Origin: Deltaproteobacteria bacterium
GTDB taxonomy: Bacteria > Desulfobacterota > DSM-4660 > Desulfatiglandales > Desulfatiglandaceae
DNA length: 64,000 nt
Assembly (NCBI GenBank): GCA_021737785.1
Contig: JAIPDI010000003.1
Span: 62,001-126,000 of the forward strand
Reading direction: 5' to 3'
The notes under the pieces are model-generated. The model did not search any database, was not told the DNA's origin, and saw nothing but the letters and a program-made list of their open reading frames with translations. The translations under genes and the position numbers were made by a program. This document shows positions 35,120-59,843 of the stretch, one piece after another (position 1 is the stretch's first letter; every line of letters starts with the position of its first letter).

Positions 35120-35150
35120 GCCATATCTCCGGAAGTACATCAAAAGTGAT

Positions 35151-36137: not shown

Positions 36138-36180
36138 GAACATAGCATAATCCTATTTATTAAACATAGACCTTACTAAA

Positions 36181-39788: not shown

Positions 39789-39939
39789 AGTCCTTCCACC
39801 TCCTCATTTTTTTAGCCCATATGGACAAGGTAAAAGAACCGGTTTATAAACTCCCAACTGGTTCATTCATTTCGAAGGATCTAGGGAAAACTGCTTTTCT
39901 CGACAACTCGGCGCCTCTTTTCAACGGATTTTTCTGCCC

Positions 39940-43748: not shown

Positions 43749-44198
43749 CTACCTCTCTTTTCGTCGAACCAAAAAAATCGGTTCGTAAGCCATAACAGTC
43801 GCTTCATTTTGATTAAAAATCTCATAACCCATGGTAATAAGCCCTCTGTCAGGCTTACGACTCTCTCCCTTCTTTAAAACCGTCCCCCGTGTCTGGATAG
43901 TATCCCCAATGAAAACAGGGCCAGGGATTCGCATGTTTTCAACCCCCAACCATGCCATAACAGAGTCTCCGTAAAATCCCGTGCTGGTCATCATTCCAAC
44001 TCCAAGTGAGAATATCAGTGGCCCGTGTGCAATCCGTCTTCCAAACTCTGCTTTGCGGGCGAACGTCTCATCCATGTGAAGCGGATAAAAATCAAGGGTC
44101 AAGTGTGCCCACTGCACAAGGTGGGCTTCAGTAATTGTCAGACGAATACTAAAGACCCTCTCTCCCACTTGAAAATCTTCCCACGTCTTATCGCTCAC
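43749..44198 (-). CDS. MaoC-like hydratase
   Basis: A single hot-dog domain of 149 residues with the R-specific hydratase motif (DFYPLHMDETFARKAEFGRRIAHGPL: catalytic Asp and His). It would add water to a 2-enoyl-CoA, or remove it. It begins with GTG behind AAGGGG. It directly precedes the acyl-CoA dehydrogenase gene in the transcript, so dehydrogenation and hydration are coupled. Confidence 0.88.
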   Translation of the reverse strand: MSDKTWEDFQVGERVFSIRLTITEAHLVQWAHLTLDFYPLHMDETFARKAEFGRRIAHGPLIFSLGVGMMTSTGFYGDSVMAWLGVENMRIPGPVFIGDTIQTRGTVLKKGESRKPDRGLITMGYEIFNQNEATVMAYEPIFLVRRKER

Positions 44199-44266: not shown

Positions 44267-44968
44267 TCATAGGCCCAGGTAGGATTGCCTGACGTGCGAA
44301 TCTGTTTCAACTTCCTTTGTGTCTCCATCAATAACTATCCTACCGTGCTCCATAACATAACATCGATTACTTATATTAAACGCCAATTGGGCATTTTGCT
44401 CCACTAATAAGATGCACGTCTTTCGATCAGCTATTTCCTTAAGATTCCTGGCCAATTCCATGCAGACCTTCGGGGCTAGACCCAATGTAGGCTCGTCAAC
44501 TAATAGTAGCGTGGGATTAACCATAAGCGCCGTGCTGACACTTAGCATAATGCGCTCGCCCCCACTTAAATCTCTGGCGCGCTGTGTTTGACGCATTTTT
44601 AATATTGGAAACAATGAAAATATGTATTCAAAATCCTTACCAATATCATCAGTGCGTAGATAAGCACCAACCTTGAGATTCTCCAAGACCGTCAAACCCG
44701 GAAAAACCTTTCCCCCCTCTGAACAATGCGCGATTCCCATTTTCGCCATCTCGAATGAGGCTGAGCCCAATACATCCTTTTCATTTAGCAGTATCCGCCC
44801 CGACAAAGCCGGAACCAAACCAGAAATTGTACGAAGCAAGGTTGTCTTTCCAGCCCCGTTGGGTCCAATCAGGGCGACGATTTCTTGACTGTCAACGCTT
44901 AAACTGACACTGTCTAACACCCTCGCCTTCCCATAATATACAGTAAGCTCCTGTACTTCAAATAGCAT
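44267..44968 (-). CDS. livF: HAAT-type ABC importer ATPase LivF, set 2
   Basis: The 233-residue ABC ATPase has Walker A GPNGAGKTTLL, signature LSGGERIM, Walker B LLLVDEPTLGLAPK and the H-loop region replaced by ILLVEQNAQ as in LivF proteins. It powers uptake with LivG. ATG 44968 (MLFEVQEL) fits the family and overlaps livG by 11 nt; a start at 44995 would add nine residues. Last gene of the second transporter set. Confidence 0.9.
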   Translation of the reverse strand: MLFEVQELTVYYGKARVLDSVSLSVDSQEIVALIGPNGAGKTTLLRTISGLVPALSGRILLNEKDVLGSASFEMAKMGIAHCSEGGKVFPGLTVLENLKVGAYLRTDDIGKDFEYIFSLFPILKMRQTQRARDLSGGERIMLSVSTALMVNPTLLLVDEPTLGLAPKVCMELARNLKEIADRKTCILLVEQNAQLAFNISNRCYVMEHGRIVIDGDTKEVETDSHVRQSYLGL

Positions 44969-45689
44969 GATCCCACTCTTTTCCCAAATAAGCATTCACC
45001 ACGTTTTCGTCGCCAACAATTTCCCGAGGCGTTCCTTCCGCCAATTTGCTGCCAAAGTTGAGAACAATAATTCTGTCTGCCAGTGGCATTAGCTCACGTA
45101 ATATGTGTTCGATAATCACCAATGTGACACCATAGTCCTTAAGTTTCACGAGCATCTCGGAAAGCGTTCGAATTTCAGAAATGGTCAAACCCGAAAATGG
45201 TTCATCAAGCAAAACCAATTTAGGCGAAGTCGCCAAAGCACGGGCAACATCAAGACGTTTTAGGTACCCATGCGAGAGCTCTCCAGGAAGCATCTCTTCA
45301 GATCCGGACAGTCCTACCAATTCAATACAATCTCTTGCCTTATCATCACAGTCTCGACCTGTGAGTTTACGCAATGTGGCAACCTTGACATTCTCCCAAA
45401 CCGTCATCTCAGGAAAAGAACTCGTCATTTGAAATGTTTTGCAGAGGCCCAATGGCGCAATTTGATATGGCTTCATCTTACTGATGTCTTGGTTTTCAAG
45501 CACAACGCTACCGCTTGACTTCGATATAGATCCACAAATCAAATTGAACAGAGTTGTCTTGCCAGCACCATTTGGACCGATTAAGCCGACGATCTCATCA
45601 CGTGAAATATCAAAACTTATATCATTAACAGCGACCAATCCACCAAAGCGCTTCGTTAGCCTTTCAACTTTAAGTAATGCCGTACTCAT
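44958..45689 (-). CDS. livG: HAAT-type ABC importer ATPase LivG, set 2
   Basis: A 243-residue ABC ATPase: Walker A GPNGAGKTTLF, Q-loop, a signature motif of the divergent form PGELSHGYLKRLD in place of LSGGQ, Walker B LVLLDEPFSGL and IIEHILREL. AGGAG precedes the ATG. It overlaps livM upstream and livF downstream, as is usual in this transporter family. Confidence 0.9.
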   Translation of the reverse strand: MSTALLKVERLTKRFGGLVAVNDISFDISRDEIVGLIGPNGAGKTTLFNLICGSISKSSGSVVLENQDISKMKPYQIAPLGLCKTFQMTSSFPEMTVWENVKVATLRKLTGRDCDDKARDCIELVGLSGSEEMLPGELSHGYLKRLDVARALATSPKLVLLDEPFSGLTISEIRTLSEMLVKLKDYGVTLVIIEHILRELMPLADRIIVLNFGSKLAEGTPREIVGDENVVNAYLGKEWDHAI

Positions 45690-46627
45690 ATCTTACTCCT
45701 AGAGGTGAATTTGGGGGACCACGGTAATAGGCCTTTAGGTCTAAAGAAAAGAATGAGAATTAAGACAACGGCATAAATAATCATACGCAATTCAGGAACA
45801 TAAAGGAGGTAATTGTTCAAAAATGTGACGATATAAGCCCCGATGATAGGCCCCATAATACTCCCTAAGCCCCCAATGATGACCATTATGATGACCAAAA
45901 TGGACATATCAACAGCCAACAATTCCGGGGTCATCGACTTAAAAAAATGGGCGTAGAAGGCACCCGAGATCCCTGCCATCACACCACTTAAAGCAAAAAA
46001 AAGCACCTTAAATTTGCCGATATTGATTCCAACAGATTCGGCAAGGATATCATTATCGCGAATACTCTGAATAATCAGGCCATAGCGAGAGTTCACAATT
46101 GTAAAACAGAGTACCACGGAGGCAACGAGAAGTATTAAAGAAAGATAATAATTGACATTGTACGAGGATGAAAGACCTTGATATCCTGAAATGCCCATCT
46201 CGCCTCCAAATATTTCGTTGAAGTACATGGCGACCCCACCCAGAATGAGAGGAAAGGCCCATGTCATCAAAGCCAGATATATGCCTCGAACCCGCAGACA
46301 GGGATAACCCAAAATAAAACCTGCCGTACCGCACATAAAACCACTGACGATGATCGCGATAGGCGTTGGAACAGAAAGATATTTATTTAGTAAAATTGAA
46401 GCATAAGCACCACCTCCAAAAAAGAACGCATGTCCAAAGCTAATTTGACCGGTATATCCGACCAGTATGTTCCAGCTTATCGCAAACATTGCAAAGATAT
46501 TCGCAATGATGAATATGCGTAGCATCCACAGGTTTGGGACGATATACGGAACAACCAGGAGCAGTATCAAGGCACTCAGAAGTTGGTATCGCGCATCTAA
46601 AAAAATCGATCTGAAGCCAGAAGACAT
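45686..46627 (-). CDS. livM: HAAT-type ABC importer permease LivM, set 2
   Basis: The 313-residue permease has about nine membrane segments and the conserved NILVGYTGQISFGHAFFFGGGAY and MTWAFPLILGGVA motifs. I start at ATG 46627, 8 nt after GGGAGG; the open frame continues upstream only inside livH. It is shorter than the set-1 LivM, which has a C-terminal addition. Confidence 0.9.
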   Translation of the reverse strand: MSSGFRSIFLDARYQLLSALILLLVVPYIVPNLWMLRIFIIANIFAMFAISWNILVGYTGQISFGHAFFFGGGAYASILLNKYLSVPTPIAIIVSGFMCGTAGFILGYPCLRVRGIYLALMTWAFPLILGGVAMYFNEIFGGEMGISGYQGLSSSYNVNYYLSLILLVASVVLCFTIVNSRYGLIIQSIRDNDILAESVGINIGKFKVLFFALSGVMAGISGAFYAHFFKSMTPELLAVDMSILVIIMVIIGGLGSIMGPIIGAYIVTFLNNYLLYVPELRMIIYAVVLILILFFRPKGLLPWSPKFTSRSKI

Positions 46628-46631
46628 ACGA

Positions 46632-47483
46632 TTACGCCTCCCCTCTTTTCCCAAAAAGTCCATAAGGTCTGACTAAAAGCACAATGATCATAATCATCAC
46701 GTACACTGCTTGTCTAAAAAACCCACCGTTCGGGATAAAAAAACTGACGAGTGTTTCCGAGAAAGCGATAATGCCCATGGCCATAAGAGCTCCCCATATA
46801 CTCCCCAAACCGCCTACCACCACCCCGGCAAAGGAAAGAAGAATCGCATCGAACCATATGAATGGCGTCAGGCAAAAGACAGGAACGACCAGTATACTGC
46901 TTAAGGCTGCCAACCCTCCGCCAATGCAGGCAACGATCAATTGTATTTTCTTTGGATTGATACCCACCAGTCCAGCAATTTCTGTTCCCTGAATCAACGC
47001 CTGTATGGCCAAGCCTTGTTTTGTTTTTTTTAAATAGAGCCAAAGGAGGGTGAATACAATCAACGCGACACCGCCCGCCAGGAGTCTCTGGCAGGAGAGC
47101 GTTGCACCTACAATTTCAATAGAGCCCTCCCACAAGGGTGCTACGTATTTGAATTCCGTACCGAAAATAAGAGTGATGATTTCACCCACCGCAATTGCGA
47201 CTGCACAAGACAAAACCATTACCACGATCGGCGTTTCTCTGAAAGGATAAAGGAGATACCTGTGAATCGGCCAAGCCATCCCACCCGCTAAAGGAATGGT
47301 CACAACGAGAGCAGTAAAACTTCCAAGTATGGGTGCTAAAACTGCAAATAAATAAGCACTTACAAGGTAATACGACCCAAAACATAGATCAAAGATTCGA
47401 GAAGTGCCTAATATGAGTGCAAATCCGGAGGCAATGAGCGCATACATCAGGCTAAGCGTCAGCCCAAACATCAGAATTTCCAT
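46632..47483 (-). CDS. livH: HAAT-type ABC importer permease LivH, set 2
   Basis: A 283-residue permease with about eight membrane segments: LTLSLMYALIASGFALILGTSRIFDLCFGSYYLVSAY at the start, GIAIQALIQGTEIAGLVGINPKKIQ (cytoplasmic coupling loop) and GGLGSIWGALMA. First permease after the binding-protein gene; a hairpin (47517-47543) lies between. Confidence 0.9.
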   Translation of the reverse strand: MEILMFGLTLSLMYALIASGFALILGTSRIFDLCFGSYYLVSAYLFAVLAPILGSFTALVVTIPLAGGMAWPIHRYLLYPFRETPIVVMVLSCAVAIAVGEIITLIFGTEFKYVAPLWEGSIEIVGATLSCQRLLAGGVALIVFTLLWLYLKKTKQGLAIQALIQGTEIAGLVGINPKKIQLIVACIGGGLAALSSILVVPVFCLTPFIWFDAILLSFAGVVVGGLGSIWGALMAMGIIAFSETLVSFFIPNGGFFRQAVYVMIMIIVLLVRPYGLFGKRGEA

Positions 47484-47516
47484 AAGAAATAACCTTTACC
47501 TATAACAAGAGGTTCA

Positions 47517-47543
47517 GGAGCTTCCCAATTATAGGAAAGCTCC
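47517..47543 (-). other. Intercistronic hairpin after the binding-protein gene, set 2
   Basis: GGAGCTTTCC and GGGAAGCTCC pair around TATAATT on the minus strand, without a T-tract. Such hairpins behind binding-protein genes protect upstream mRNA, giving more binding protein than permease. Set 1 has a counterpart at 57651-57687. Confidence 0.55.
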
Positions 47544-47562
47544 CGTTAAGAAGAGTGCTTCG

Positions 47563-48843
47563 TTATTTCTTAAACATCCATGGAGGAAGCAACAACTTAC
47601 CATCCACGTACTTATCCTGTTTCTCCTTTGGCTCTATCGGCCCAATATGAACCATAACGAACTTGCCTCCTGGCTGATGTTGTAGGGTCCACATCGGCGA
47701 ACCTACACCGACCGGCCCGTAACGGAAGGTATGGTTTTGCTGATAATCTATAGTTCCGCCGACACTTTCAAATTTAATGTCTTCGAGAGCACTTATCATT
47801 GCATCATCTTCCAGAGACTTCGCTTTATCTGCTGCGTGTTTCAGAGACCAAATTGCGACATATGTACCCGCCGAATTAAAATAGCATGTGCCAACCTCTT
47901 TTTGCAGATAGTCCCATAATTTTTTGGTGTCCGCAGTTACAGGAACGTGCGCTGCACCAAAATTATAAGTACAAACATATGCGCATTTACCACCAGTCTG
48001 TTCCCAAAATTTGGGACTCATGGCAAGAACATTCACACCAGCCCAAATCGCTGGGACTTTCATTTCATGCCACTGTCTGATTAACGGGAGTGAGCTCTTA
48101 TAAGCCATTGTACCGACTATAATGTGTGCTCCGCTCTTCTTTATTGCCGTCAACTCAACAGATGCATCAGTTGCACTAGTCGATAGCTTACTCTCATAAA
48201 CTATTTCATAGCCTTTTTCTTTGAATTCATTTAGACAGGCTTCGTGAACCAATTCGGTCCATTGGGCCGCATCTGACAATACAGCCAATTTGATCTTGTC
48301 GATTCCGAGTTCACTCTTAATTTGTTCTGCTATGAACGGGACCTGTTCTTCTATGACATATCTCGCTTCACCATCTAATTCATCATGTGGTGAATTACGA
48401 AAGGCATATTTATACTTCTCATAATTCTTATCGGTACTGGTGACCCAGTCGTGCGTTGCACCCCCTGAAAATATTGAAACTACCTTGAGATCACACGCGG
48501 TTTCGCGCGCTGCCATAGTCTCCTCACTCCCAAAGCACCCTATTAGAAACTTTACATCATCCACTTCAACTAGCTTATGAACAGCATTAGCAGCTCCCGA
48601 CGCTTTCAGCCCGCTATCAGCGATGTAAAGCTTCAGAGGCCTGCCTAAGATACCTCCTCCTTTATTAACCTCCTCTATTGCCAATTTTGCAGCAGCGATT
48701 TGTGTCTTTCCATAGTCCCAAGTCACTGCGCCCACATACCCAATCTTGAGCGGCTCTTCCCCACAAGTTGCCCCAGTTGAGAAGCCTAAAGCAAAGCAAA
48801 AGCCCAGAGCACTTACGAACAACACCCTTAAAAATCCTTTCAT
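47563..48843 (-). CDS. HAAT-type periplasmic binding protein, set 2
   Basis: The 426-residue protein has a signal peptide (MKGFLRVLFVSALGFCFALGFSTGATCG) and the two-lobed leucine-binding fold: LKIGYVGAVTWDYGKTQIAAAKLAIEEVN, GILGRPLKLYIADS, KFLIGCFGSEETMAARE. AAGGAGG precedes the start. Such proteins bind amino acids, amides, or often aromatic and other carboxylic acids in catabolic clusters; given the neighbours a carboxylic acid is likely. The ligand pocket cannot be read from the sequence. Confidence 0.9.
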   Translation of the reverse strand: MKGFLRVLFVSALGFCFALGFSTGATCGEEPLKIGYVGAVTWDYGKTQIAAAKLAIEEVNKGGGILGRPLKLYIADSGLKASGAANAVHKLVEVDDVKFLIGCFGSEETMAARETACDLKVVSIFSGGATHDWVTSTDKNYEKYKYAFRNSPHDELDGEARYVIEEQVPFIAEQIKSELGIDKIKLAVLSDAAQWTELVHEACLNEFKEKGYEIVYESKLSTSATDASVELTAIKKSGAHIIVGTMAYKSSLPLIRQWHEMKVPAIWAGVNVLAMSPKFWEQTGGKCAYVCTYNFGAAHVPVTADTKKLWDYLQKEVGTCYFNSAGTYVAIWSLKHAADKAKSLEDDAMISALEDIKFESVGGTIDYQQNHTFRYGPVGVGSPMWTLQHQPGGKFVMVHIGPIEPKEKQDKYVDGKLLLPPWMFKK

Positions 48844-49035: not shown

Positions 49036-49830
49036 TCAGATTCCTCTAAATTCCGGCTTTCGCTTTTCCAAGAAGGCTGCTACGCCCTCAGCACAATCCT
49101 CTGAACCCATGAGCGCTGATATCGCACCTCTTTCGATGGATAACGCAGCATCCATATCTGAACATTCAAGAGAATAATTTATCACCATTTTGGCCATTTT
49201 GAGTGCATTCGGTGCCTTCGAAGTCAATTCTGAAGCAAGCTTCATCGCCTCGTCCATTAAGGCATTCTTTTCCACAAGTTTGTATATCAAGCCCGATTCC
49301 TTTGCTTCCTTTGCGCCCACCTGCTTACCGGTCATGATCCACTTTTTAGCACCTCTGGCACCAAGAGCGCGTGCAAGACGAACACATCCCCCCCAACCTG
49401 GAATTATTCCAATGTTAATTTCCGGGAGTCCAAAAACAGCGCCATCTCCAGCTATAATCAAGTCACATGCCAGTGCTATTTCCAGTCCACCTGCCAGGCA
49501 ATAGCCATTTACAGCAGCAATAAGGGGCTTCTCCATAATTTCCATCAACCGATGTACCTCATATCCCGGATCACGCATGAGGTGATATCCTTTGATAGAA
49601 GATATTTCATCGAAAATCCTGATATCAGCTCCGGCGCAGAATGCTTTTTCTCCCTTGCCGGTAATTATTATCACCTTAGACTTATTATCATCCCGAACAT
49701 ACCTGAGTGCCCTAAGCAATTCTTTCTCCATGTCCAAATTCAAGGCATTCAGTTTATCTGGATTGTTGAGTGTTATAGTTGTCACCCCATCCTTATTGGA
49801 AAGTAGCAAATATTCATATTCTGTATTCAT
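49036..49830 (-). CDS. Enoyl-CoA hydratase/isomerase (crotonase) family protein
   Basis: The 264-residue crotonase has CoA-binding AFCAGADIRIF and the oxyanion-hole AAVNGYCLAGGLEIALACDL. Of the two hydratase glutamates, the one in GLPEINIGIIPGWGG is present, while the second appears to be Lys (ARGAKKWIMTG), so the reaction may be isomerisation, hydrolysis or hydration of an altered substrate. Start ATG 49830 has AAGGAG 10 nt upstream; 49851 would add seven residues. Confidence 0.88.
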   Translation of the reverse strand: MNTEYEYLLLSNKDGVTTITLNNPDKLNALNLDMEKELLRALRYVRDDNKSKVIIITGKGEKAFCAGADIRIFDEISSIKGYHLMRDPGYEVHRLMEIMEKPLIAAVNGYCLAGGLEIALACDLIIAGDGAVFGLPEINIGIIPGWGGCVRLARALGARGAKKWIMTGKQVGAKEAKESGLIYKLVEKNALMDEAMKLASELTSKAPNALKMAKMVINYSLECSDMDAALSIERGAISALMGSEDCAEGVAAFLEKRKPEFRGI

Positions 49831-50037
49831 ATCGTCCAACTCCTTAATCATATGTCCAGTAATCGCAAGAGCAGCCTTGAGAGATGGGCCAAATCAGCGT
49901 GATCTAATCCACCTACACAACGTGTAACGGCATCAAGTGACTTATAGCCCAATCCACCTCCGTCAGTTTAAGGTACTATGGAGCATTACTTTCAAAAATG
50001 TTGATTAACACGCCCATCCGTATCAAATTCAGTTTTC

Positions 50038-50802
50038 TTATACAAAACCATACGCAGACCAACCACCGTCTACAACGAGAGTGTGCCCCGTTATGAAATT
50101 AGCGTTATCTGAAACCAAAAACATAACAGCATTGGCTATATCTTTCGGCGTCGCGATTCGACCCAACGGGGTGCGCTTCGCAAGGGTCTTTTCATCCAAA
50201 ATCCCATTTTCAACCATTTCAGCTATAAATTCTGTTTTCACGTATCCAGGCGCCACGGCATTCACCGTGATACCCCTATTCGCCCATTCAAGCGCCAGAA
50301 TTTGAGTAAGCTTGATAACACCACTTTTCGCTGGACCATATGCGGTTCTTGAAGGAAAGGTGAGTATGCCTGCAATCGAGGAGATATTTACAATCCTGCC
50401 TTGCTTGCTAGAAAACATAAGGGGAGCGCAAGTCTTGCTCATTAAATATGTCCCTTTTAAATGAACATCGACGAGCCTTTCCCATATTTGCAAATCTTGT
50501 TCAATTATCGGACCTTGTTGATCTACAAGACCAGCGTTGTTAATCAACACATCGATCCGCCCCCAGCTTTTCTGAATACTGGATATCATTTTCCTAACAT
50601 CGGTCTCTACTGAGACATCTCCTGGCAATGCCATTGCATGATTCCCTGTGGTAATAATTTCAGCTACAAGTGCCTCAGCATTCTCAAAACGAATATCATT
50701 AACTCCTACAGCGTAATTCTCACTCGATAAGGATAAAGCGATTTCTTTTCCGATCCCTTGACCGGCCCCAGTTACAACTGCGATCCTAAAATGATCCATC
50801 AT
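50038..50802 (-). CDS. SDR oxidoreductase, paralogue of the gene at 53050
   Basis: A 254-residue SDR: TGAGQGIG, INNAG (LINNAGLVDQQGP), catalytic Ser in NISSIAGIL and YGPAK, and C-terminal ITGHTLVVDGGWSAYGFV. It is closely similar to the SDR at 53050-53814, so one is probably a duplicate. It would oxidise a hydroxyacyl-CoA or reduce a keto group. ATG 50802 is preferred to TTG 50808; the ribosome site is weak. Confidence 0.88.
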   Translation of the reverse strand: MMDHFRIAVVTGAGQGIGKEIALSLSSENYAVGVNDIRFENAEALVAEIITTGNHAMALPGDVSVETDVRKMISSIQKSWGRIDVLINNAGLVDQQGPIIEQDLQIWERLVDVHLKGTYLMSKTCAPLMFSSKQGRIVNISSIAGILTFPSRTAYGPAKSGVIKLTQILALEWANRGITVNAVAPGYVKTEFIAEMVENGILDEKTLAKRTPLGRIATPKDIANAVMFLVSDNANFITGHTLVVDGGWSAYGFV

Positions 50803-50833
50803 TCTCAATCCGTCTTTTGAAATTTGATATTCT

Positions 50834-51283
50834 CTATCTTCCCCTCTCGGGAGATACCCCTTTTAATATATAGCTATAATAAATGTAAATCCTTCGTTCC
50901 TTGAAATACCAGATACCATAATCTTTGACCAACATGTCATCGTAACGACCGAATGTAATGATCGGCTCGTTTGTGTTGATTTTGATGGAATCAGCATCAA
51001 GATAACTGACCGAAATCGCACTATCATCCTCGATAGATATGAAAGGAGATTGAACTTTATGTCGTAAAAACTTTAAACGTGCTTGTACCCTATTTTTATA
51101 ATTGGTATACCAGGCGAGAATAGCCTTCCAACCCTCATATCGATTTTCGCCTTCATAAATCGGGAAAAGGACGGCCGTAGGATGAAACAGCTCCACCAAT
51201 TCATCAACCGTTCCCCTATCCAGAACATGGCAGTATCTATTTAATAGCTGCTCTATCGCTAGAATATCTTCAATCGGTATCAC
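50834..51283 (-). CDS. SnoaL/NTF2-like fold protein
   Basis: The 149-residue protein has an NTF2-like cone: N-terminal helix AIEQLLNRYCHVLDRGTVDELVELFHPTAVL, then strands FGRYDDMLVKDYGIWYFKERRIYIYYSYI. Such folds act as ketosteroid isomerases, dehydratases, or small subunits. Start is GTG with a weak ribosome site. It lies next to the DUF35/thiolase-fold pair, so it may be a dehydratase or isomerase of the same pathway; this is inference. Confidence 0.75.
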   Translation of the reverse strand: MIPIEDILAIEQLLNRYCHVLDRGTVDELVELFHPTAVLFPIYEGENRYEGWKAILAWYTNYKNRVQARLKFLRHKVQSPFISIEDDSAISVSYLDADSIKINTNEPIITFGRYDDMLVKDYGIWYFKERRIYIYYSYILKGVSPERGR

Positions 51284-51353: not shown

Positions 51354-51767
51354 CTAGAACCCTACAGGTCTAAATCTGGGGAACGTAAAATCGTCAGTTA
51401 CCTGATCAAAAACAACTTCTACATCCATATCACATCGAACTTTTTCAGGATCGCACTCCACTACATTACTCATCATCCGAACTCCTTCATCAAGCTCGAT
51501 AACACCGATGATGTAAGGTACGTCATCAGAAAATTCTGTTGGTTGATAAGAGTACACAACAGTAAATGAATAAATCTTTCCTTTGCCCCTGGCCTCTACC
51601 CAACTCAGTTCTTGAGATAAGCAGAAAGGACAAAACAATTTGGGATAAAAAATATATTTCTCACACTCCCTACATCTCTGGACCAAAAGTTTCTTTTCCT
51701 TGCAACCTTGCCAAAATGGCATGCTCCAAGGCGTTGGCTTAGGTAGAGGCTTTTTATAATCTCTCAT
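51354..51767 (-). CDS. DUF35 zinc-ribbon/OB-fold protein, partner of the thiolase-fold protein
   Basis: The 137-residue protein has a rubredoxin-like zinc ribbon (RCREC ... LFCPFC, about 31-49) and a C-terminal OB fold (GKGKIYSFTVVYSYQP ... IIGVIELDEGVRMMSNVV). DUF35 proteins form complexes with thiolase-fold partners, for example ChsH2 with Ltp2 in steroid side-chain breakdown. GGGAGGG precedes the ATG, and the start overlaps the thiolase-fold gene by 4 nt, which supports an obligate pair. Confidence 0.88.
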   Translation of the reverse strand: MRDYKKPLPKPTPWSMPFWQGCKEKKLLVQRCRECEKYIFYPKLFCPFCLSQELSWVEARGKGKIYSFTVVYSYQPTEFSDDVPYIIGVIELDEGVRMMSNVVECDPEKVRCDMDVEVVFDQVTDDFTFPRFRPVGF

Positions 51768-52948
51768 GGCACTTCCCTCCCTAGAATGACAATGTGTGAA
51801 TCCATAAACGTCCCACCGAGCGACGATTCTACGGCAATTTTTGCATCTTCTACTTGTCGTTCACCTGCCTTACCCATAAGCTGCCTGAAGGCTTCCACCA
51901 GTACGGCGACCCCACCCCCTGCAGCAGTATGTCCTTGACCCAGCATGCCTCCGTTCGTCGTCATCGGCAATTTTCCCCCGGGCCACGTATTCCCATCATA
52001 AACAAAGGCACCGGCTTCCCCCCTTCTACAAAGTCCTAATCCCTCCAAAGTGATAAGCGGAAAAATTGGATATCCATCATACAGCTCAGCTATGTCAATA
52101 TCTTCCGGACCAACCCCAGCCATTTGATAAGCGTCATGTGAAGCTTCATAAAAACCGAGCCTTGTAAGATCCACATCCTGAGAAATGGAATAGTGGCATA
52201 CTCTTGAACCGAAACCTAAAGGATATACAGGTGGGTTCTTGAGGTCTTTGGCCCTATCAGCAGAAGTCACGATAAATGCAGCGCCTCCATCGGCAAGTAC
52301 ATTACCTTCCTTCGTGGTGAAGGGTGTGGCAACCATTTTTGCATCGAGCACTTCGTCAACAGTCAGTTCTCTTCGAAGCATTGCGTTAGGATTCAGCGCC
52401 GCCCATTTTCTCATGGAAACTACAACTGAGGCTAACTCTTCAGCCGTTGCGCCAGTCTCATGCATATATCTGGTAGCGAAGAGGCTTCCCGTACCTGCCA
52501 TAAAGAATCCATATGGAGTTTCCCATTCGTCCGGGATTCCAAACGTTGCAAATAAGTTGATCATCTCCTGGACTGGAGCTGAACCGGTTTTATCAGATTG
52601 AACACAAAGAATGACTTCAGCGAGACCCGAATTTATCAAACCACAGGCTGTCTTAAGCATCGCCGAACTACTCGATCCCCCCGCAAAGACCTGAAAATTG
52701 TTATGGGCCTTGTTCAGCAACCCCAACTCCTCCACCAGTTTCGAGAAAATCATATCCGTGTTATATCTTCTATCGAAAAATGTTCCCGTGGGAATAATGG
52801 TATCAATCTCATCTTTTTCGATCCCACAATCAAGAATTGCTCCTCTACAGGCCTCAAGGGCGTTTTGCAAACAAGGCCGATCCGGAAACTTGCCAGTCGG
52901 CACCTCCCCTATTCCTACAACTGCAACTTTGCCTTTAAATGAATTCAT
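51764..52948 (-). CDS. Thiolase-fold protein without catalytic Cys/His (Ltp2-like lyase candidate)
   Basis: The 394-residue protein has the SCP2-thiolase fold and length. In true thiolases a Cys sits in the Nxx-C-xSGxxA motif; here the aligned stretch (about 87-97) is VFAGGSSSSAM with no Cys. The usual catalytic His in the HDxF motif is Tyr (AELYDGYP, Tyr290), while GQGH (His340) is kept. The Ltp2-type retro-aldolases show the same changes and use Tyr residues. It overlaps its DUF35 partner gene by 4 nt. It therefore probably cleaves a tertiary 3-hydroxyacyl-CoA rather than a 3-ketoacyl-CoA. AAGGAGG precedes the ATG. Confidence 0.85.
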   Translation of the reverse strand: MNSFKGKVAVVGIGEVPTGKFPDRPCLQNALEACRGAILDCGIEKDEIDTIIPTGTFFDRRYNTDMIFSKLVEELGLLNKAHNNFQVFAGGSSSSAMLKTACGLINSGLAEVILCVQSDKTGSAPVQEMINLFATFGIPDEWETPYGFFMAGTGSLFATRYMHETGATAEELASVVVSMRKWAALNPNAMLRRELTVDEVLDAKMVATPFTTKEGNVLADGGAAFIVTSADRAKDLKNPPVYPLGFGSRVCHYSISQDVDLTRLGFYEASHDAYQMAGVGPEDIDIAELYDGYPIFPLITLEGLGLCRRGEAGAFVYDGNTWPGGKLPMTTNGGMLGQGHTAAGGGVAVLVEAFRQLMGKAGERQVEDAKIAVESSLGGTFMDSHIVILGREVP

Positions 52949-53049: not shown

Positions 53050-53814
53050 TCAAATATAACCATATGCAGTAAATCCACCGTCAACAACAATCGTTTGTCC
53101 GGTAATGTAGTTTGCAGTATCTGAGCACAAAAATAAGACGATATCGGCGATTTCTTCAGGAGTTCCAAGCCTTTTCATAGGTATCCTATTACATATTTCC
53201 TTCTGATTCATTTTTCCCTGACGAATGAAGTTATCAACCATTTCCGTCTGAATATAGCCAGGCGCAACGGCATTGACATTAATGTTGGCGGAAGCCCATT
53301 CTAATGCAAGGACTTTTGTCAGCATAATAATTGCACTTTTTGCCGTTCCGTAGCCCGTCCGCATAGGGAAGCCGTTCAACCCTGCAATAGACGACATATT
53401 GATAATTCTCCCAAAACCGATCTTTAACATAGTCTTGGCAATTTCTTTGCTGCATATATAGGTCGCCTTCAGGTGTATATCCATCAATCTCTGCCATTTA
53501 TCAGTATCTTGTTCGATAATAGGAACTAATTGCTCAGATATACCGGCGTTATTGACAAGATAGTCGACATGTCCCCATCGGCTGATGACCCGATCTATCA
53601 TGGATCTTATTTCATTCTCAAAACCGATATCGGCCTGAAAGCTTAACGCTATTCCACCCTGCTGACTTATCTCATTAACCACATATTGCGCTGCCTGTTC
53701 ATCAATATCATTCACCGCGACTTTGATCTTTTGCCGTGCCATCAATTGACACACAGCCTTCCCGATACCGTTCCCTCCTCCTGTTACAAGCGCAACTTTA
53801 TCCCTTTTTGACAT
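53050..53814 (-). CDS. SDR oxidoreductase, paralogue of the gene at 50038
   Basis: A 254-residue SDR with TGGGNGIG, VNNAG, NMSSIAGL and YGTAK, ending YITGQTIVVDGGFTAYGYI. It matches the SDR at 50038-50802 along its length. It is the last gene after the set-1 transporter and directly precedes the thiolase-fold gene in the transcript. Likely substrate: a hydroxyacyl-CoA intermediate. Confidence 0.88.
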   Translation of the reverse strand: MSKRDKVALVTGGGNGIGKAVCQLMARQKIKVAVNDIDEQAAQYVVNEISQQGGIALSFQADIGFENEIRSMIDRVISRWGHVDYLVNNAGISEQLVPIIEQDTDKWQRLMDIHLKATYICSKEIAKTMLKIGFGRIINMSSIAGLNGFPMRTGYGTAKSAIIMLTKVLALEWASANINVNAVAPGYIQTEMVDNFIRQGKMNQKEICNRIPMKRLGTPEEIADIVLFLCSDTANYITGQTIVVDGGFTAYGYI

Positions 53815-53917: not shown

Positions 53918-54622
53918 TTAGACTTCAAGCCATTCTTTGCGAACACTTGCATTTGCCCTAAAATCTTCAGCCGTGCCTTCGAACACGATATTCCCGTGGC
54001 CCATGACCAAAAGACGTTGTGATATCTTGAGAGCAATCGCCAGTTTTTGCTCAACAAGCAAAATCGATACACCCCTTGCCTTGATCTCTTCAAGCATCCT
54101 CGCCAGGAGACTGATAACTTTGGGAGCTAATCCTTCGGTTGGCTCATCAATCATAATTAAATCGGGATCCCCCAAGAGGGACCTACATAACGTAAGCATC
54201 TGCTGTTCTCCTCCCGATAGCTTTCCGGCACAAACACCGGCGCGTTTTTCCAGAATGGGAAAAACCTCGAACATGTCATCCATTGTCCAGCGGCTTAATT
54301 TTTTTCCAGTTTTAATTCCCATCATTAAATTTTGCTCAACAGTAAGATTGCTAAAGATGTCGCGATTTTCTGGAACATACCCGAGACCTTTGTGTACGAT
54401 TTCGTATGGTTTGAGTCCTGCTATTGATTCACCTTTAAAGGAGATTGAGCCTGCGGGATCAATCTCACCAATGATCGTCTTGAGCGTCGTTGATTTGCCG
54501 ACCCCATTGCGGCCCAGGAGGCTGACAATTTCGCTCGTTTGAATATCAAAACTGACATCAAATAGGATATGGCTTTTTCCATAATAGCTATTCAGATTTT
54601 CTACTTTCAGCATCGTATCCAC
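53918..54622 (-). CDS. livF: HAAT-type ABC importer ATPase LivF, set 1
   Basis: A 234-residue ABC ATPase: Walker A GRNGVGKSTTL, signature LSGGEQQML, Walker B LIMIDEPTEGLAPK and LLVEQKLAIAL. The start is GTG 54622 or ATG 54613, with neither site strong. It follows livG by 49 nt. Confidence 0.9.
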   Translation of the reverse strand: MDTMLKVENLNSYYGKSHILFDVSFDIQTSEIVSLLGRNGVGKSTTLKTIIGEIDPAGSISFKGESIAGLKPYEIVHKGLGYVPENRDIFSNLTVEQNLMMGIKTGKKLSRWTMDDMFEVFPILEKRAGVCAGKLSGGEQQMLTLCRSLLGDPDLIMIDEPTEGLAPKVISLLARMLEEIKARGVSILLVEQKLAIALKISQRLLVMGHGNIVFEGTAEDFRANASVRKEWLEV

Positions 54623-54671
54623 TACTATACTCGTAAACCTCTTCGAATTTTCTATTAACTAATTAACTATA

Positions 54672-55436
54672 TTAGTCCCTATTCGCCTCTTCAAGACTTC
54701 CAAGATAAGCCGCTTGAACTCGCTTATTTTCCTTGATCATGCGCGGTTCATCCGTAGCGATAATATGGCCATAAACCAATACGGAAATATGATTTGAAAT
54801 GGCGAAGACAACATCCATGTTATGCTCGACAAAAACAAGGGTTTTACCCTTCATAGTTTTTTGTATTAAAGCGATCATTTCCGTGGTTTCCTGCCTACTC
54901 AATCCTGCTGTCGGCTCATCAAGAAGAATGACCTCAGCGCCGCTACCTATTGTAATTCCAATTTCCAAAAGGCGCTGCTCTGCATACGATAAGGTACCTG
55001 CGATAATGTTCCTCCGCTCAGTCATACCGATCTGCTCAAGGATTTGTTCGGCACGATCTCGAACATGTTTCAGTGAATTGACGGTCTTCCAAAAGGCGTA
55101 TTTCTCCCCAAGTACCCACAATAGGGAACACCTAATATTCTCAAATACGCTCATTTCTCTGAAAATGTTTGTGATCTGAAAACTTCGGCTTAACCCTTTC
55201 CTGTTGATTTCAAATGGCCTGAGCCGGGCGATCTCCTCCCCTTTGAATTTGATACTCCCAGATGTCGGCTTGTATATACCGGTAATGAGGTTGAAGAGGG
55301 TAGACTTGCCAGCGCCATTAGGACCGATTATGGAATGGAATTCCCCTTTCCTTACGGAAAGTTTACAATCAACGATGACCTTTGTCTTACCGAAGCTCTT
55401 ACTCAGTCCCTCTATATTCAGAATCAATTTATTCAC
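54672..55436 (-). CDS. livG: HAAT-type ABC importer ATPase LivG, set 1
   Basis: A 254-residue ABC ATPase: Walker A GPNGAGKSTLF, divergent signature LSYAEQRLLEIG, Walker B VILLDEPTAGLSRQE and VEHNMDVVFAI. The GTG start overlaps the end of livM by 8 nt, indicating coupling. It differs clearly from the set-2 LivG, so the two transporter sets are not a recent duplicate. Confidence 0.9.
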   Translation of the reverse strand: MNKLILNIEGLSKSFGKTKVIVDCKLSVRKGEFHSIIGPNGAGKSTLFNLITGIYKPTSGSIKFKGEEIARLRPFEINRKGLSRSFQITNIFREMSVFENIRCSLLWVLGEKYAFWKTVNSLKHVRDRAEQILEQIGMTERRNIIAGTLSYAEQRLLEIGITIGSGAEVILLDEPTAGLSRQETTEMIALIQKTMKGKTLVFVEHNMDVVFAISNHISVLVYGHIIATDEPRMIKENKRVQAAYLGSLEEANRD

Positions 55437-56670
55437 CTGATTCCATTTCTATTGAAACCTGACTCCATTTTCTCTTAACGATTGCTAGGCTCTTCATAAA
55501 TAGAAATCCCCCAGCCAATAGACCAAAAATGGGGACACCCCATGTGAGAAATCCACTCACGTCAAGTGTTATGCCAGAAATGGTGATAATCGGGTCGGAA
55601 TAACCTGTTGAAGACCAGCGGTAGATTATCTCGATGAGGGCCACACCTGATAAGATCAATAAGAGACAGGGCAACAGCGACAAAGTATATGCCGGAATGA
55701 TCCTGTGCAAGAGCTTCCCCTGCCAGAGAGGTTTGTGAATCATGAAAATCCCTGCAATACCCGTTGGAGCGAAAAGTACCATCAGCAGAAAAAGGAATCC
55801 GACATAAAAGAGCCAGGCCGCTGTAAATGCGCTCAAATAATAGCCCAGAAAAGTCACAAGAACTGCGCCAAATATCGGTCCGAAGAAATATTTTGAACCA
55901 CCGATGAACACCATAAAAAGCACAAAAGCCGATTCATGTATTCCAACCTTTTCATAGGACACGACTTCCCAGCTAATTGCGTAAAGCCCCCCTGCCAGCC
56001 CGGCAAAAAAACCAGAAGCCATCATAGCGAGACCACGAACCCTTAATGGATTATAACCGATAAATTCTGAGCGCTGAGGATTGTCTCGTACGGTATTCAA
56101 AATCCTCCCAAGAGGCGTATGCGTAAACGCGTACATCAAAACAATGCAGATAAATACCCAGATAGCAATTAAATAATAGACTTGGACTTGGGAACCGAAT
56201 GAAAAAACAAAAAATGCCTCTCGCATAGCGGATATCCCTGTTTCGCTCCCAAAAAAACCAGAGAACATCAAGGCACTTGAAGCGATAAGTTCATTGATCC
56301 CCATGGTAATCATTGCGAATGTTGCTCCTGCCCGCCTCGTTGCTATTAATCCGACAATAGTGCCCAAAATCAGACCACTGAACGCGCCGACCAGCGGGAG
56401 TAGCGGTGTGGGAACTGAAAATTGACCGGCATTACCGAGGGCCATGGCATGAATCGTAAAAAAGGCACCAAGACCGAAGAACACGGCATGACCAAATGAC
56501 AATAATCCGCATTCGCCAAGAAGAATATTGTAAGAAAGTGCAAAAACAATAGCGATGCCCATCTGGTTGATCAGAGACAACGACATATCTGATCTAAAAT
56601 AGAAGGGAACCACGGCCATCAATGCCGCCATAATGAGCCAGACTTTATATTTGAAAAACAAATCCATCAT
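55429..56670 (-). CDS. livM: HAAT-type ABC importer permease LivM with C-terminal extension, set 1
   Basis: The 413-residue permease has the LivM core (NILLGECGLLSFGHAVFFGLGAFF, ATFAMITMGINELIASSALM) over about 310 residues, and about 100 more with at least two further membrane segments (AYTLSLLPCLLLILSGVALIEI and FLTWGVPIFGLLAGGFLFM). Such long forms exist in some lineages. It overlaps livH by 4 nt. The extension's role is unknown. Confidence 0.9.
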   Translation of the reverse strand: MMDLFFKYKVWLIMAALMAVVPFYFRSDMSLSLINQMGIAIVFALSYNILLGECGLLSFGHAVFFGLGAFFTIHAMALGNAGQFSVPTPLLPLVGAFSGLILGTIVGLIATRRAGATFAMITMGINELIASSALMFSGFFGSETGISAMREAFFVFSFGSQVQVYYLIAIWVFICIVLMYAFTHTPLGRILNTVRDNPQRSEFIGYNPLRVRGLAMMASGFFAGLAGGLYAISWEVVSYEKVGIHESAFVLFMVFIGGSKYFFGPIFGAVLVTFLGYYLSAFTAAWLFYVGFLFLLMVLFAPTGIAGIFMIHKPLWQGKLLHRIIPAYTLSLLPCLLLILSGVALIEIIYRWSSTGYSDPIITISGITLDVSGFLTWGVPIFGLLAGGFLFMKSLAIVKRKWSQVSIEMESGE

Positions 56671-57602
56671 GTCTCACGCGTGCCCATTAGGCCCTTTGGC
56701 CTGAATATGAGGATAAGCACCATAAATAAAAAGGGCAATGCCTCAGCAGTCTGTGAGATCTTGATCCCCAGAATCCCAACGTTTGGACAGCTTATTCCCA
56801 GAGAGTTAAAAAGATCCGAAAGGGCGTATTCGCTTCCAGCAGCAAAGTTCTGAATAACTCCGATGATAATCGAGGCAATGAGCGCGCCGACTAACGATCC
56901 CAATCCGCCCACAATCACAACAACAAAGACAATCAAACCCAAGCGATCAGCCATTCCTGGCTCCGTACCAAACATGTTGCCACTAATAACTCCTGCTAAT
57001 CCTGCCATGGCGCAACCCACTGAGAATACACTCATAAAAATTCGGGAGACGTTATGCCCTAACTCTCCTACCATAACAGGATTGACAAGTGCAGCTTGAA
57101 CGATCATGCCAACCCGGGTCTTCTTCATAAATAGATAAAGACCGGTGAACATAAGTAAGGAAACCGAGAACATGAACCCTCTATAGGAATGAAAGCTCGT
57201 GGTAAATATGGTGAACAATGAGAAATCCAATGATTCCGGAATATTATATTCAACGGGCAATCTGCCCCAAACCAAACTTACCAACTCGCCGATTAGGTAA
57301 GCTAGGCCGAAAGTAAATAAGAGTTCAGCCATATGGCCATATTTGTGCACGAGCCGCAGTCCGTATTTTTCCACCATTGCGCCACTAAAGCCGACAGCAA
57401 TCGGTGAGATAATCAGTGCAGGCCAGAAACCTATGAACACACTAATCTGGTAGGCGATGTATGCACCCAGCATGTAGAAACTGGCATGGGCAAAGTTGAG
57501 AACCCCCATCATTCCAAAAATCAAAGTCAACCCGCTGGACAGCATAAATAGAAGAAGACCGTACAAAAGGCCATTAATCAATGAAATGATAAAAAACTCC
57601 AT
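56667..57602 (-). CDS. livH: HAAT-type ABC importer permease LivH, set 1
   Basis: A 311-residue permease: INGLLYGLLLFMLSSGLTLIFGMMGVLNFAHASFYMLGAY, the coupling loop GMIVQAALVNPVMVGELGHN and GGLGSLVGALIASIIIG. It follows the binding-protein gene across a strong hairpin. Confidence 0.9.
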   Translation of the reverse strand: MEFFIISLINGLLYGLLLFMLSSGLTLIFGMMGVLNFAHASFYMLGAYIAYQISVFIGFWPALIISPIAVGFSGAMVEKYGLRLVHKYGHMAELLFTFGLAYLIGELVSLVWGRLPVEYNIPESLDFSLFTIFTTSFHSYRGFMFSVSLLMFTGLYLFMKKTRVGMIVQAALVNPVMVGELGHNVSRIFMSVFSVGCAMAGLAGVISGNMFGTEPGMADRLGLIVFVVVIVGGLGSLVGALIASIIIGVIQNFAAGSEYALSDLFNSLGISCPNVGILGIKISQTAEALPFLFMVLILIFRPKGLMGTRET

Positions 57603-57650
57603 AATCGCCTATCCTTTATCATACTCTTACAGACTTCGATCCTTCCGATG

Positions 57651-57687
57651 GGCAGAGGATTTCTCTTTAGGTTTGAAATCCTCTGCC
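57651..57687 (-). other. Intercistronic hairpin after the binding-protein gene, set 1
   Basis: GGCAGAGGATTTC (57651-57663) pairs perfectly with GAAATCCTCTGCC (57675-57687) around an 11-nt loop, extended by CCGA/TCGG outside. There is no T-tract on the minus strand, so it probably stabilises binding-protein mRNA, like the hairpin in set 2. Confidence 0.65.
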
Positions 57688-57707
57688 TTCGGTCTCGGGC
57701 AGCGCCT

Positions 57708-58955
57708 TTATTTGGAAGGTCGTTCCATTTTGCAGCTTGTTTGCAAATATACGTCTTCAGAAGGTACGATCATCAGGGTCTTCCAACCATATCCGGTATC
57801 CTCTACATCATATTTGACATCCTTCGAAAAGACCGATATGACCTGTGGCATAACTGCTTGATGGTTATCTGCTCTCATCAAAAGTTCTCCGGTTGGTGTA
57901 TTTACTCTCATGCCCTCCAAGGCATAGGCTATATCTATTGCCCTAATGGATTTCGTATTTTCGATCGCGCTGCAGAGCATTTTTATCATTGTGTTAATCT
58001 CTTGATAGTAAAAATCGACTCCATATTTTTCTTTGAATTTGAGTGCAAATTTGGTAGTTTCGTTGTCCCCGTCATTATAATTTATGTGCCAGGTCGTAAC
58101 CTGAACAGTACCCTCGCCAGCTTCTTGAAGAGCAGATGGCGCGCCAATAACCCCAGCATAAGTTGTTATCCATTTTGCTTTCAGCCCGGCATTGTGTGAG
58201 GCCTTAATTAACATATTTAGGTCGGTTCCCCAATCACCAGTGACAACGGCATCTGCACTTGAAGCTTTTATTTTGTTTATGTAGGGGGCAAAATCCTTTA
58301 TTTTTCCCACCGGATGGAATACATCGCCAACAATTTCAATGTCTGGTCGACGTTCTTTCAATTCCTTCTTGGAAGCCGCGCTAATTCCATGACCATGCGA
58401 GTAATCCATATTTATCAAAAAGACTTTCTTTACAGATTTATCTGAAGCCAGATATTTAATAAGCGCCGTAATCTTTTGATCTGCGGTCGGCCCCCAGCGA
58501 AAGAACCAAAAATTGCATTTTTCATTCGTAAGTGATGGCTCTGTAGAATCCGGACAGAGAAAAACAACTCTTTTGTCAGGGTTCCGAAAATTATGCTTCT
58601 CAACCGCATCCAGCATCGCGGCTGTTGCACCGGAACTGTGGCCTTGGCAAATGATGGAAATGCCTTGATCGATAGCGCGCTTGAGTTGAAATACACTTTC
58701 ACTTGGACTGTTTTTATTGTCAAAAAGTACGATTTCCAGTTTTTTCCCTAAGACACCTCCTGCTTCATTGATATGATCAGCAATCATCTGATATTGTTTA
58801 TTACTTTGATCGCCAACAGCCGCAAAAGGTCCTGAAGCTGGGTCTATAACTGCAATTTTAATAGTGTCTGCAGCGAAAGTTGAAAGGGGAATTAACATTG
58901 CGGAAAGAAGAATAATGGTAACTATTCCAGCCCTGCTTAGCTTTCCTTTTATCAT
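57708..58955 (-). CDS. HAAT-type periplasmic binding protein, set 1
   Basis: A 415-residue binding protein with signal peptide (AGIVTIILLSAMLIPLSTFAAD) and leucine-binding fold: IKIAVIDPASGPFAAVGDQSNKQ, AGGVLGKKLEIVLFDNKNSP, IICQGHSSGATAAMLDAV. AAGGAGG precedes the start. It is only distantly similar to the set-2 binding protein, so the two importers probably take up different compounds. It is the first gene of the set-1 transporter. Confidence 0.9.
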   Translation of the reverse strand: MIKGKLSRAGIVTIILLSAMLIPLSTFAADTIKIAVIDPASGPFAAVGDQSNKQYQMIADHINEAGGVLGKKLEIVLFDNKNSPSESVFQLKRAIDQGISIICQGHSSGATAAMLDAVEKHNFRNPDKRVVFLCPDSTEPSLTNEKCNFWFFRWGPTADQKITALIKYLASDKSVKKVFLINMDYSHGHGISAASKKELKERRPDIEIVGDVFHPVGKIKDFAPYINKIKASSADAVVTGDWGTDLNMLIKASHNAGLKAKWITTYAGVIGAPSALQEAGEGTVQVTTWHINYNDGDNETTKFALKFKEKYGVDFYYQEINTMIKMLCSAIENTKSIRAIDIAYALEGMRVNTPTGELLMRADNHQAVMPQVISVFSKDVKYDVEDTGYGWKTLMIVPSEDVYLQTSCKMERPSK

Positions 58956-59052: not shown

Positions 59053-59808
59053 TTAAAACATAAATGCGCCTCCGTTTATACTGAGGGTTGCTCCAGTAAC
59101 ACAGCTTGACTCATCAGACGCCAGATACAGAGCCCCGTCAGCGATATCTAAGGGCACCGCATGTCTTCCAAGAGGGACTCTTTTGAGGTATTCATCGCCA
59201 ACATTGATCGCCGCCTCATCCCCCATTTGGGTTTCAACGGTCACTCCAGGGCATATATTGTTCGTTCTTATGCCATACGGCCCTAATTCAAGTGCGATCG
59301 CCCTGGTGAACCCCATCATTCCCGCCTTGCTTGTAGCATAGTGCGAATGTCCAAAGCTCGGTGCTGTTTGGCCACCGATCGAAGCTATATTGATGATTAC
59401 ACCACCGTTCTTCTGTGACTTCATGTAATTGCCCACCGCTCTAGAACAATAAAAGCAACCGTAAAGGTTGATTCTCAATGTTCTATCCCAATCCTCATCA
59501 CTCATGTCAAGTATGGCCTTTTTTTCATAAATCCCTGCACAGTTTACGAGAATATCGATTTTGCCAAATTTTTCATATATTCCATCGGCCATCTTACTAA
59601 CTTCAACGGACCTTGAAACATCAGTGATAAAAAACTCTGCCTTGCCGTCATATCGCTTCAAGATATCTTGGACTTCCCTTTTATCATTGCTCATAACGGC
59701 ATCTGCCAGAACAACTGTCGAACCCTCCTGCAGAAAACGAACCGCAATAGCCCTACCTATCCCACCACAGCCCCCAGTTATAATCGAAATCTTGTCTTGC
59801 AGCCTCAT
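59053..59808 (-). CDS. SDR oxidoreductase
   Basis: A 251-residue SDR: TGGCGGIG, VNCAGIYE, NIASIGGQTAP and YATSK, ending in CVTGATLSINGGAFMF. I start at ATG 59808, which has GAGGTG 4-5 nt upstream; a frame from 59841 would add 11 residues. It lies between the ligase and binding-protein genes and is a separate type from the 50038/53050 pair. Confidence 0.88.
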   Translation of the reverse strand: MRLQDKISIITGGCGGIGRAIAVRFLQEGSTVVLADAVMSNDKREVQDILKRYDGKAEFFITDVSRSVEVSKMADGIYEKFGKIDILVNCAGIYEKKAILDMSDEDWDRTLRINLYGCFYCSRAVGNYMKSQKNGGVIINIASIGGQTAPSFGHSHYATSKAGMMGFTRAIALELGPYGIRTNNICPGVTVETQMGDEAAINVGDEYLKRVPLGRHAVPLDIADGALYLASDESSCVTGATLSINGGAFMF

Positions 59809-59843
59809 ATTCACCTCACATTCCAAATCTGTTCCTTCCACAA

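Follow-up and report, generated by a model that had tools for sequence, protein, structure and literature searches.

The window analysed here, a stretch of 64,000 nucleotides, carries on its reverse strand a run of acyl-CoA genes in which lies a gene pair encoding a thiolase-fold protein without the nucleophile Cys and a DUF35 protein (Table 1). Two sets of LIV-type transporters, i.e., ABC importers of the branched-chain amino acid type, belong to the same surroundings, and a conventional thiolase gene is located ~1.5 kb beyond the window end. The gene run also includes a CitE/RipC-like C-C lyase gene (HpcH/HpaI type, 33013-33897), a second possible acyl-CoA lyase. Between CoA genes, positions 34436-37338 code for proteins resembling, by sequence, DUF2284, heterodisulfide-reductase-like Fe-S and DUF362 proteins, which could perhaps constitute an electron-transfer unit for the acyl-CoA dehydrogenases. 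The SnoaL gene was considered as a conserved part of the module and rejected, as it was not found in the loci of relatives; its product has no significant match among the proteins of the Rhizobium etli cluster described below, and no solved relative.

Table 1. Genes of the catabolic run surrounding the thiolase-fold/DUF35 pair, in order of position in the window
Feature	Position	Strand	Remark
3-hydroxyacyl-CoA dehydrogenase	37335-38222	-	
Two acyl-CoA ligases	38226-41493	-	
Acyl-CoA dehydrogenase	42591-43742	-	Glu246 at IVD/LCAD site, Gly367 at MCAD Glu376 site
MaoC (PaaZ-like) enoyl-CoA hydratase	43749-44198	-	Pfam; DFYPLH Asp/His dyad
LIV-type ABC importer, set 2	44267-48843	-	named from sequence
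Crotonase-type enoyl-CoA hydratase	49036-49851	-	Pfam; both Glu (GGLE, GLPE)
SDR oxidoreductase	50038-50808	-	Pfam
SnoaL_4-like protein	50834-51283	-	Pfam; directly downstream of DUF35
DUF35 partner	51354-51767	-	137 aa; zinc ribbon and OB fold
Thiolase-fold protein without Cys (PF22691), proposed acyl-CoA retro-aldolase	51764-52948	-	394 aa
SDR oxidoreductase	53050-53814	-	Pfam
LIV-type ABC importer, set 1	53918-58955	-	binding protein, two permeases, two ATPases; named from sequence
SDR-type oxidoreductase	59053-59841	-	named by sequence, no Pfam scan
Acyl-CoA ligase	59844-61400	-	
Second acyl-CoA dehydrogenase	61409-62575	-	Asp at IVD site, Gly at MCAD site
Regulator	62754-63986	-	two TetR-type halves in one ORF; by sequence

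The host assembly totals 5.33 Mb in 96 contigs. Orthologues of the 394-aa protein are absent from 45 genomes of the same genus or family (best E 1.6e-51, ~33% identity), and one with 85% identity occurs in the genome of another family. G+C content ranges between 0.49 and 0.55 at 1-32 kb and between 0.43 and 0.49 at 32-64 kb; the fall coincides with the start of the catabolic run, with housekeeping genes on the other side. Patchy distribution, the close match in another family and the shift in G+C together suggest a horizontally acquired catabolic island. At L039, a 61% identical copy of the regulator with two TetR halves is the immediate upstream neighbour of the aldolase candidate with 85% identity, and relatives of this regulator are also found at two other loci (L044 and L050).

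Pfam assigned the 394-aa protein to PF22691 (Thiolase_C_1, 2.9e-52) and the 137-aa protein to PF12172 (zf-ChsH2) and PF01796 (OB_ChsH2_C). The DUF35 protein possesses a complete C4 zinc ribbon (C32-x2-C35-x10-C46-x2-C49), the four Cys of which are invariant across aligned relatives. The two ORFs share 4 nt (51764-51767), in agreement with the overlap reported in an earlier sequence-only reading of this DNA. Comparison of the 394-aa gene with its 85% identical orthologue gave dN = 0.106 with saturated dS, hence the aldolase-candidate gene is under purifying selection.

The same reading had described a catalytic loop free of Cys and a Tyr at the place of the catalytic His, and both observations were upheld. 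The thiolase-fold protein bears the motifs GGSSSSAM (90-97), YDGYP (from 290) and GQGH (337-340), and none of its Cys (26, 34, 41, 102, 115, 251 and 307) is in the nucleophile loop. In an active-site alignment of 115 proteins, including Cys-type thiolases and three paralogues of the same genome, Gly91 aligns with the nucleophile Cys and Tyr290 with the His of HDCF. The Cys-type thiolases display Cys, HD[AC]F and GH, and the three paralogues keep Cys, HDCF and GHP. The 394-aa protein and its 80 nearest relatives display GG, then Y-x-x-Y, then GH, one incomplete row being without the last two; the third place of Y-x-x-Y in these relatives is taken by G, S or A, all small residues, and the nucleophile site reads GG in all 80. 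Gly90, Gly91, Tyr290, His340, Gly378 and Gly379 are invariant over 53 aligned rows. Since GG, Tyr290 and His340 are invariant, yet the paralogues keep the Cys motifs, the loss is not a matter of chance.

Two explanations have to be weighed against this pattern. The Ser-rich loop, the thiolase fold and the retained GH motif could be read as those of a thiolase using an alternative nucleophile, e.g., a Ser of the GGSSSS loop; nevertheless, position 92 varies between S, A and G over the clade, GG alone is invariant, no conserved Ser replaces the Cys, and Cys thiolases already exist in the genome, which makes this explanation hardly credible. That the protein serves as a non-catalytic scaffold holding DUF35 and the hydratase, as the lost nucleophile and the role of DUF35 in holding known complexes together might indicate, is very improbable given the strong purifying selection and the conservation across phyla of Tyr290, Tyr293, His340 and the glycines in the loops of the active site.

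Tyr290 aligns with Tyr294 of TcLtp2 and Tyr302 of CtSal, two bases established by mutagenesis, the Y302F mutant of CtSal being essentially inactive (PMC12329534). Gly292 aligns with Ltp2 His296 and Sal Cys304, and His340 with Ltp2 Tyr344 and Sal Gln352. Compared with thiolases, the protein is devoid of the nucleophile Cys and of the HDxF His (replaced by Tyr290), and retains the GHP His (His340 in GQGHT). Compared with Ltp2, it has the Tyr base and is devoid of the Tyr344 acid and of His296, where His340 and Gly292 stand. From the Sal dyad Tyr302/Cys304, the Tyr is present and the site of Cys304 is Gly292. The predicted base is common to Ltp2, Sal and the 394-aa protein, and the second residue differs. 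Retention of His340, stressed in the earlier reading, is real as regards the GQGH motif, but with Tyr344 at this place in Ltp2 it is a difference rather than a likeness. His340, the old thiolase His and the sole invariant candidate found, is the proposed acid. As Ltp2 Tyr344 and Sal Cys304 are both absent, we propose that the Tyr290/His340 pair represents a third version of the active site.

In a tree of thiolase-fold proteins (bootstrap and SH-aLRT), Cys and Cys-less proteins are parted by a single 100/100 branch, and both characterised aldolases, Sal and Ltp2, fall on the Cys-less side. The 394-aa protein also falls on this side, within an 84-sequence clade that is distinct from the Cys thiolases and that 100/100 support sets apart from Sal as well as Ltp2/4u4e. 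The protein is an orthologue of neither Ltp2 nor Sal, from which it differs by clade and by second catalytic residue. A larger tree of 113 rows was also built. Two subclades are supported, I (96/96) and II (99/96), the first of which contains the 394-aa protein and members from Desulfobacterota, Chloroflexota, Actinomycetota, Bacillota, and Rhizobium etli and Rhodococcus plasmids; subclade II has Desulfosarcina widdelii and Desulfatibacillum alkenivorans among its cultured representatives. NCBIfam models gave scores below their cut-offs, i.e., 196 of 469 bits for the lipid-transfer protein PRK07855, and 156 of 750 bits (BbsB) and 53 of 250 bits (BbsA) for the equivalogs. The clade constitutes a large uncharacterised family across several phyla of mostly anaerobic bacteria. 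At least five members are found in the genome of isolate PL23a_bin.76 (L064, L066, L083, L104 and L113), two of which (L066 and L113) have neighbours resembling the DUF1302/DUF1329 outer-membrane pair.

The AlphaFold2 model of the 394-aa protein (pLDDT 91, pTM 0.93) has 4u4e, Sal (9myr) and Ltp2 (6ok1) as its best three PDB matches by Foldseek. However, Z-scores for thiolase 6esq (50.8) and TbSLP (51.5) are as high as those for Sal (49.5) and Ltp2 (48.8). The fold alone is thus not diagnostic of the reaction, and fold likeness was dropped as proof of chemistry.

The gene context is more specific about the partners. A scan of the genome collection provided 80 loci with flanks, in which DUF35 adjoins the aldolase-candidate gene in 70 of 78 cases. 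Of the 32 loci of subclade I, 28 have a MaoC hydratase gene after DUF35, within 1.5 kb downstream, and none has a crotonase gene there; subclade II shows the opposite, 30 of its 44 loci having a crotonase gene within this distance and none a MaoC gene. Of the eight loci where DUF35 does not adjoin, seven have as their next ORF a fusion of DUF35 and crotonase, and two further loci bring the fusions to nine. Fusion genes immediately follow the Cys-less thiolase gene in Desulfosarcina widdelii PP31 (L101:11176-12489) and at L092, L094, L095, L099, L102, L103, L106 and L107. Among the 15 titles listed by a literature search, none concerned this fusion. Fusion in relatives is strong evidence that the hydratase would work with the putative aldolase via DUF35. 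Shy is a fusion of DUF35 and MaoC (PMC11321319) and ChsH2 one of MaoC and DUF35 (PMC12502768); the domain logic is the same, but the fusion of the relatives carries a hydratase of another fold, a crotonase.

Both types of hydratase are present in the window, where the MaoC gene is ~7 kb from the pair. The sequence-only reading did not mention these two partners, on which the functional argument mainly rests. DFYPLH in the MaoC protein, and GGLE and GLPE in the crotonase, hold the catalytic residues according to established knowledge of both families. A profile of the linked MaoCs scored the window MaoC at 199 bits (66 for the next protein of the same genome), and in the corresponding crotonase profile the window crotonase reached 305 bits (211 for the next). 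Linkage, together with fusion in relatives, supports a likely coupling of hydratase and aldolase.

This coupling also bears on whether the enzyme performs other enolate chemistry, namely hydrolytic or retro-Claisen cleavage, decarboxylation or synthetic aldol condensation. The Cys-less homologue TbSLP slowly decarboxylates malonyl-CoA (PMC12329534), and members of subclade II, in which position 291 is not Asp, are encoded in a cluster with an amidohydrolase and OYE-type enzymes. Conversely, hydratase linkage and the DUF35-hydratase fusion point to a 3-hydroxyacyl-CoA substrate, and CtSal, whose base is the equivalent Tyr, does not decarboxylate malonyl-CoA (PMC12329534). We regard such chemistry as unlikely, although it retains some weight.

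Several neighbourhoods deserve separate mention. On R. etli plasmid pRetNXC12e (L119), the genes of a 52% identical aldolase candidate and of DUF35 overlap by 4 nt, as in the window. Their cluster also encodes CoA-transferase, acetoacetate decarboxylase family, hydantoinase-like, P450 and NTF2-like proteins. The hydantoinase-like gene was considered as a ketone carboxylase, which would imply a ketone product, and rejected, its nearest solved relative being 5-oxoprolinase and not acetone carboxylase. Three kinds of protein recur at subclade I loci (e.g., L058:7463-8902): of 85 neighbours scanned, 13 are HpaB-family flavoproteins, 15 FabK/NMO-like proteins and 13 amine-oxidase-like flavoproteins. 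Identification of the HpaB-family neighbours as 4-hydroxybutyryl-CoA dehydratase was discarded, as the five copies read have no Cys at 99 and 103, which we take to be the positions of its Fe-S ligands. Finally, HMG-CoA synthase-like proteins with a fused C-terminal DUF35 are encoded beside Cys-type thiolases in anaerobic clusters (L040:5544-6959 and L062:16827-18251).

As to the substrate, the linked acyl-CoA dehydrogenases have Glu at the site of IVD Glu254 and none at that of MCAD Glu376 in 30 of 40 cases in subclade I and 37 of 38 in subclade II, and the window dehydrogenase at 42591-43742 is of this type. Among the ACADs compared, only IVD and LCAD have their base at this site, and LCAD accepts branched and bulky acyl-CoAs (PMC10925408). 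The Glu placement thereby suggests branched or bulky substrates, which lends circumstantial support to the branched or ring-attached acid of the sequence-only reading. Hydration of a beta-branched or ring-carbon acyl-CoA yields a tertiary 3-hydroxyl, which is not oxidisable. Ltp2 acts where a tertiary 3-hydroxyl blocks oxidation (PMC8399759), and so does ThnQ/ThnS of naphthalene degradation, from a different protein family (PMC12016498). A tertiary substrate is thus likely but not certain, because Sal acts on a secondary alcohol.

By its loss of Cys, predicted Tyr base, DUF35 partner and hydratase linkage, the 394-aa protein belongs to the broad class of thiolase-fold acyl-CoA aldolases. We consider it probable that the pair is a DUF35-stabilised retro-aldolase acting on a 3-hydroxyacyl-CoA, probably tertiary, to release acetyl- or propionyl-CoA and a ketone or aldehyde. 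To our knowledge, such retro-aldol cleavage has so far been characterised mainly in steroid-degrading bacteria. The retro-aldol lyase put forward earlier is thus well supported as an aldolase-type class, through alignment, phylogeny, hydratase linkage and natural fusion in relatives, and membership of Ltp2 or Sal is not supported. The acid would be taken up by a LIV-type importer, activated by a CoA ligase and converted into a 2-enoyl-CoA by an acyl-CoA dehydrogenase with an IVD/LCAD-type base, before addition of water at C3 by the MaoC or crotonase hydratase. The aldolase would then split the 3-hydroxyacyl-CoA, a step requiring neither free CoA nor an acyl-enzyme: Tyr290 would accept the proton of the 3-hydroxyl, the C2-C3 bond would break, and His340 could protonate the enolate. 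Expected products are acetyl-CoA, or propionyl-CoA from a 2-methyl substrate, along with a ketone if the 3-hydroxyl is tertiary and otherwise an aldehyde. No aldehyde dehydrogenase family is found among the 25 commonest families of 85 neighbours, and no ketone-handling enzyme is evident in the context. With conventional beta-oxidation genes close by (3-hydroxyacyl-CoA dehydrogenase and thiolase), some intermediates are presumably thiolysed. These points count against the retro-aldolase reading, as do the distance of the MaoC gene from the pair, the presence of two hydratases and the lack of the second catalytic residue of either known aldolase.

More broadly, and tentatively, with the chances slightly against it, the family could define a mostly anaerobic, non-steroid "aldolytic beta-oxidation" module of several phyla, consisting of a Tyr/His aldolase with DUF35 and one of the two hydratases (MaoC or crotonase), which some members fuse with DUF35, and cleaving beta-branched or alicyclic acids whose tertiary 3-hydroxyl resists oxidation for thiolysis. 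What appears to be new is an uncharacterised clade with its own combination of active-site residues, a second type of hydratase, and a mostly anaerobic and apparently non-steroid setting. Current annotation calls such proteins acetyl-CoA acetyltransferase or thiolase; should they be aldolases, the cleavage step is wrong in reconstructed pathways of anaerobic degradation in which they appear, and branched and cyclic acids would have an oxygen-independent route bypassing thiolysis. Next to the designs of Ltp2 and Sal, the conserved Tyr/His pair and the fusion of DUF35 with crotonase offer a third one that is clear and testable, and possibly biocatalysts for compounds other than steroids.

The pair could also be an anaerobic counterpart of Sal or Ltp2 acting on the side chain of bile acids or sterols. 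Fold, DUF35 partner and hydratase linkage are all shared, the window MaoC is PaaZ-like as Shy was reported nearest to PaaZ (PMC11321319), and DUF1302/DUF1329 proteins occur near some relatives. Yet the clade stands apart and is spread over many anaerobic phyla, the second catalytic residue is that of neither enzyme, and in the window cluster two LIV-type importers are present but no gene was recognised as steroid-specific. A steroid substrate is accordingly quite improbable. No anaerobic side-chain aldolase of sulfate reducers turned up in a literature search.

CtSal-CtShy, the aldolase system of the bile acid C5 side chain (9MYR; PMC12329534, PMC11321319), shares with the pair the thiolase fold, GG in place of Cys, a Tyr base in YDxY, a DUF35 partner and a hydratase coupled via DUF35. 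CtSal differs by its clade and by Cys304 (YDCY) and Gln352 in place of Gly292 and His340, and Shy by the fusion of DUF35 to MaoC, whereas the window proteins are separate and relatives fuse DUF35 with crotonase. TcLtp2-ChsH2, acting on the steroid C3 side chain (6OK1), is similar in fold, Tyr base, DUF35 partner and neighbouring dehydrogenase and MaoC; TcLtp2 belongs to another clade and has His296 (YDHF) and Tyr344 instead of Gly292 and His340, and its system includes a heteromeric MaoC pair that the window does not have. The nearest solved relative (34% identity), the uncharacterised "putative thiolase" 4U4E of Sphaerobacter, presents the GG loop, YDSF and a His at the same site, but the tree places it with Ltp2-side proteins, outside the window clade. 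The benzoylsuccinyl-CoA thiolase BbsAB (7PXP) is likewise a DUF35-paired thiolase fold of anaerobic acyl-CoA catabolism, but it has Cys, HDAF and GHP and falls with the thiolases at the 100/100 branch. Finally, although annotated as another protein family in an operon that lists no DUF35, the AtuA-like lyase ThnQ/ThnS of anaerobic naphthalene degradation in sulfate reducers is reported to cleave a C-C bond at a non-oxidisable tertiary hydroxyl of an acyl-CoA (PMC12016498).
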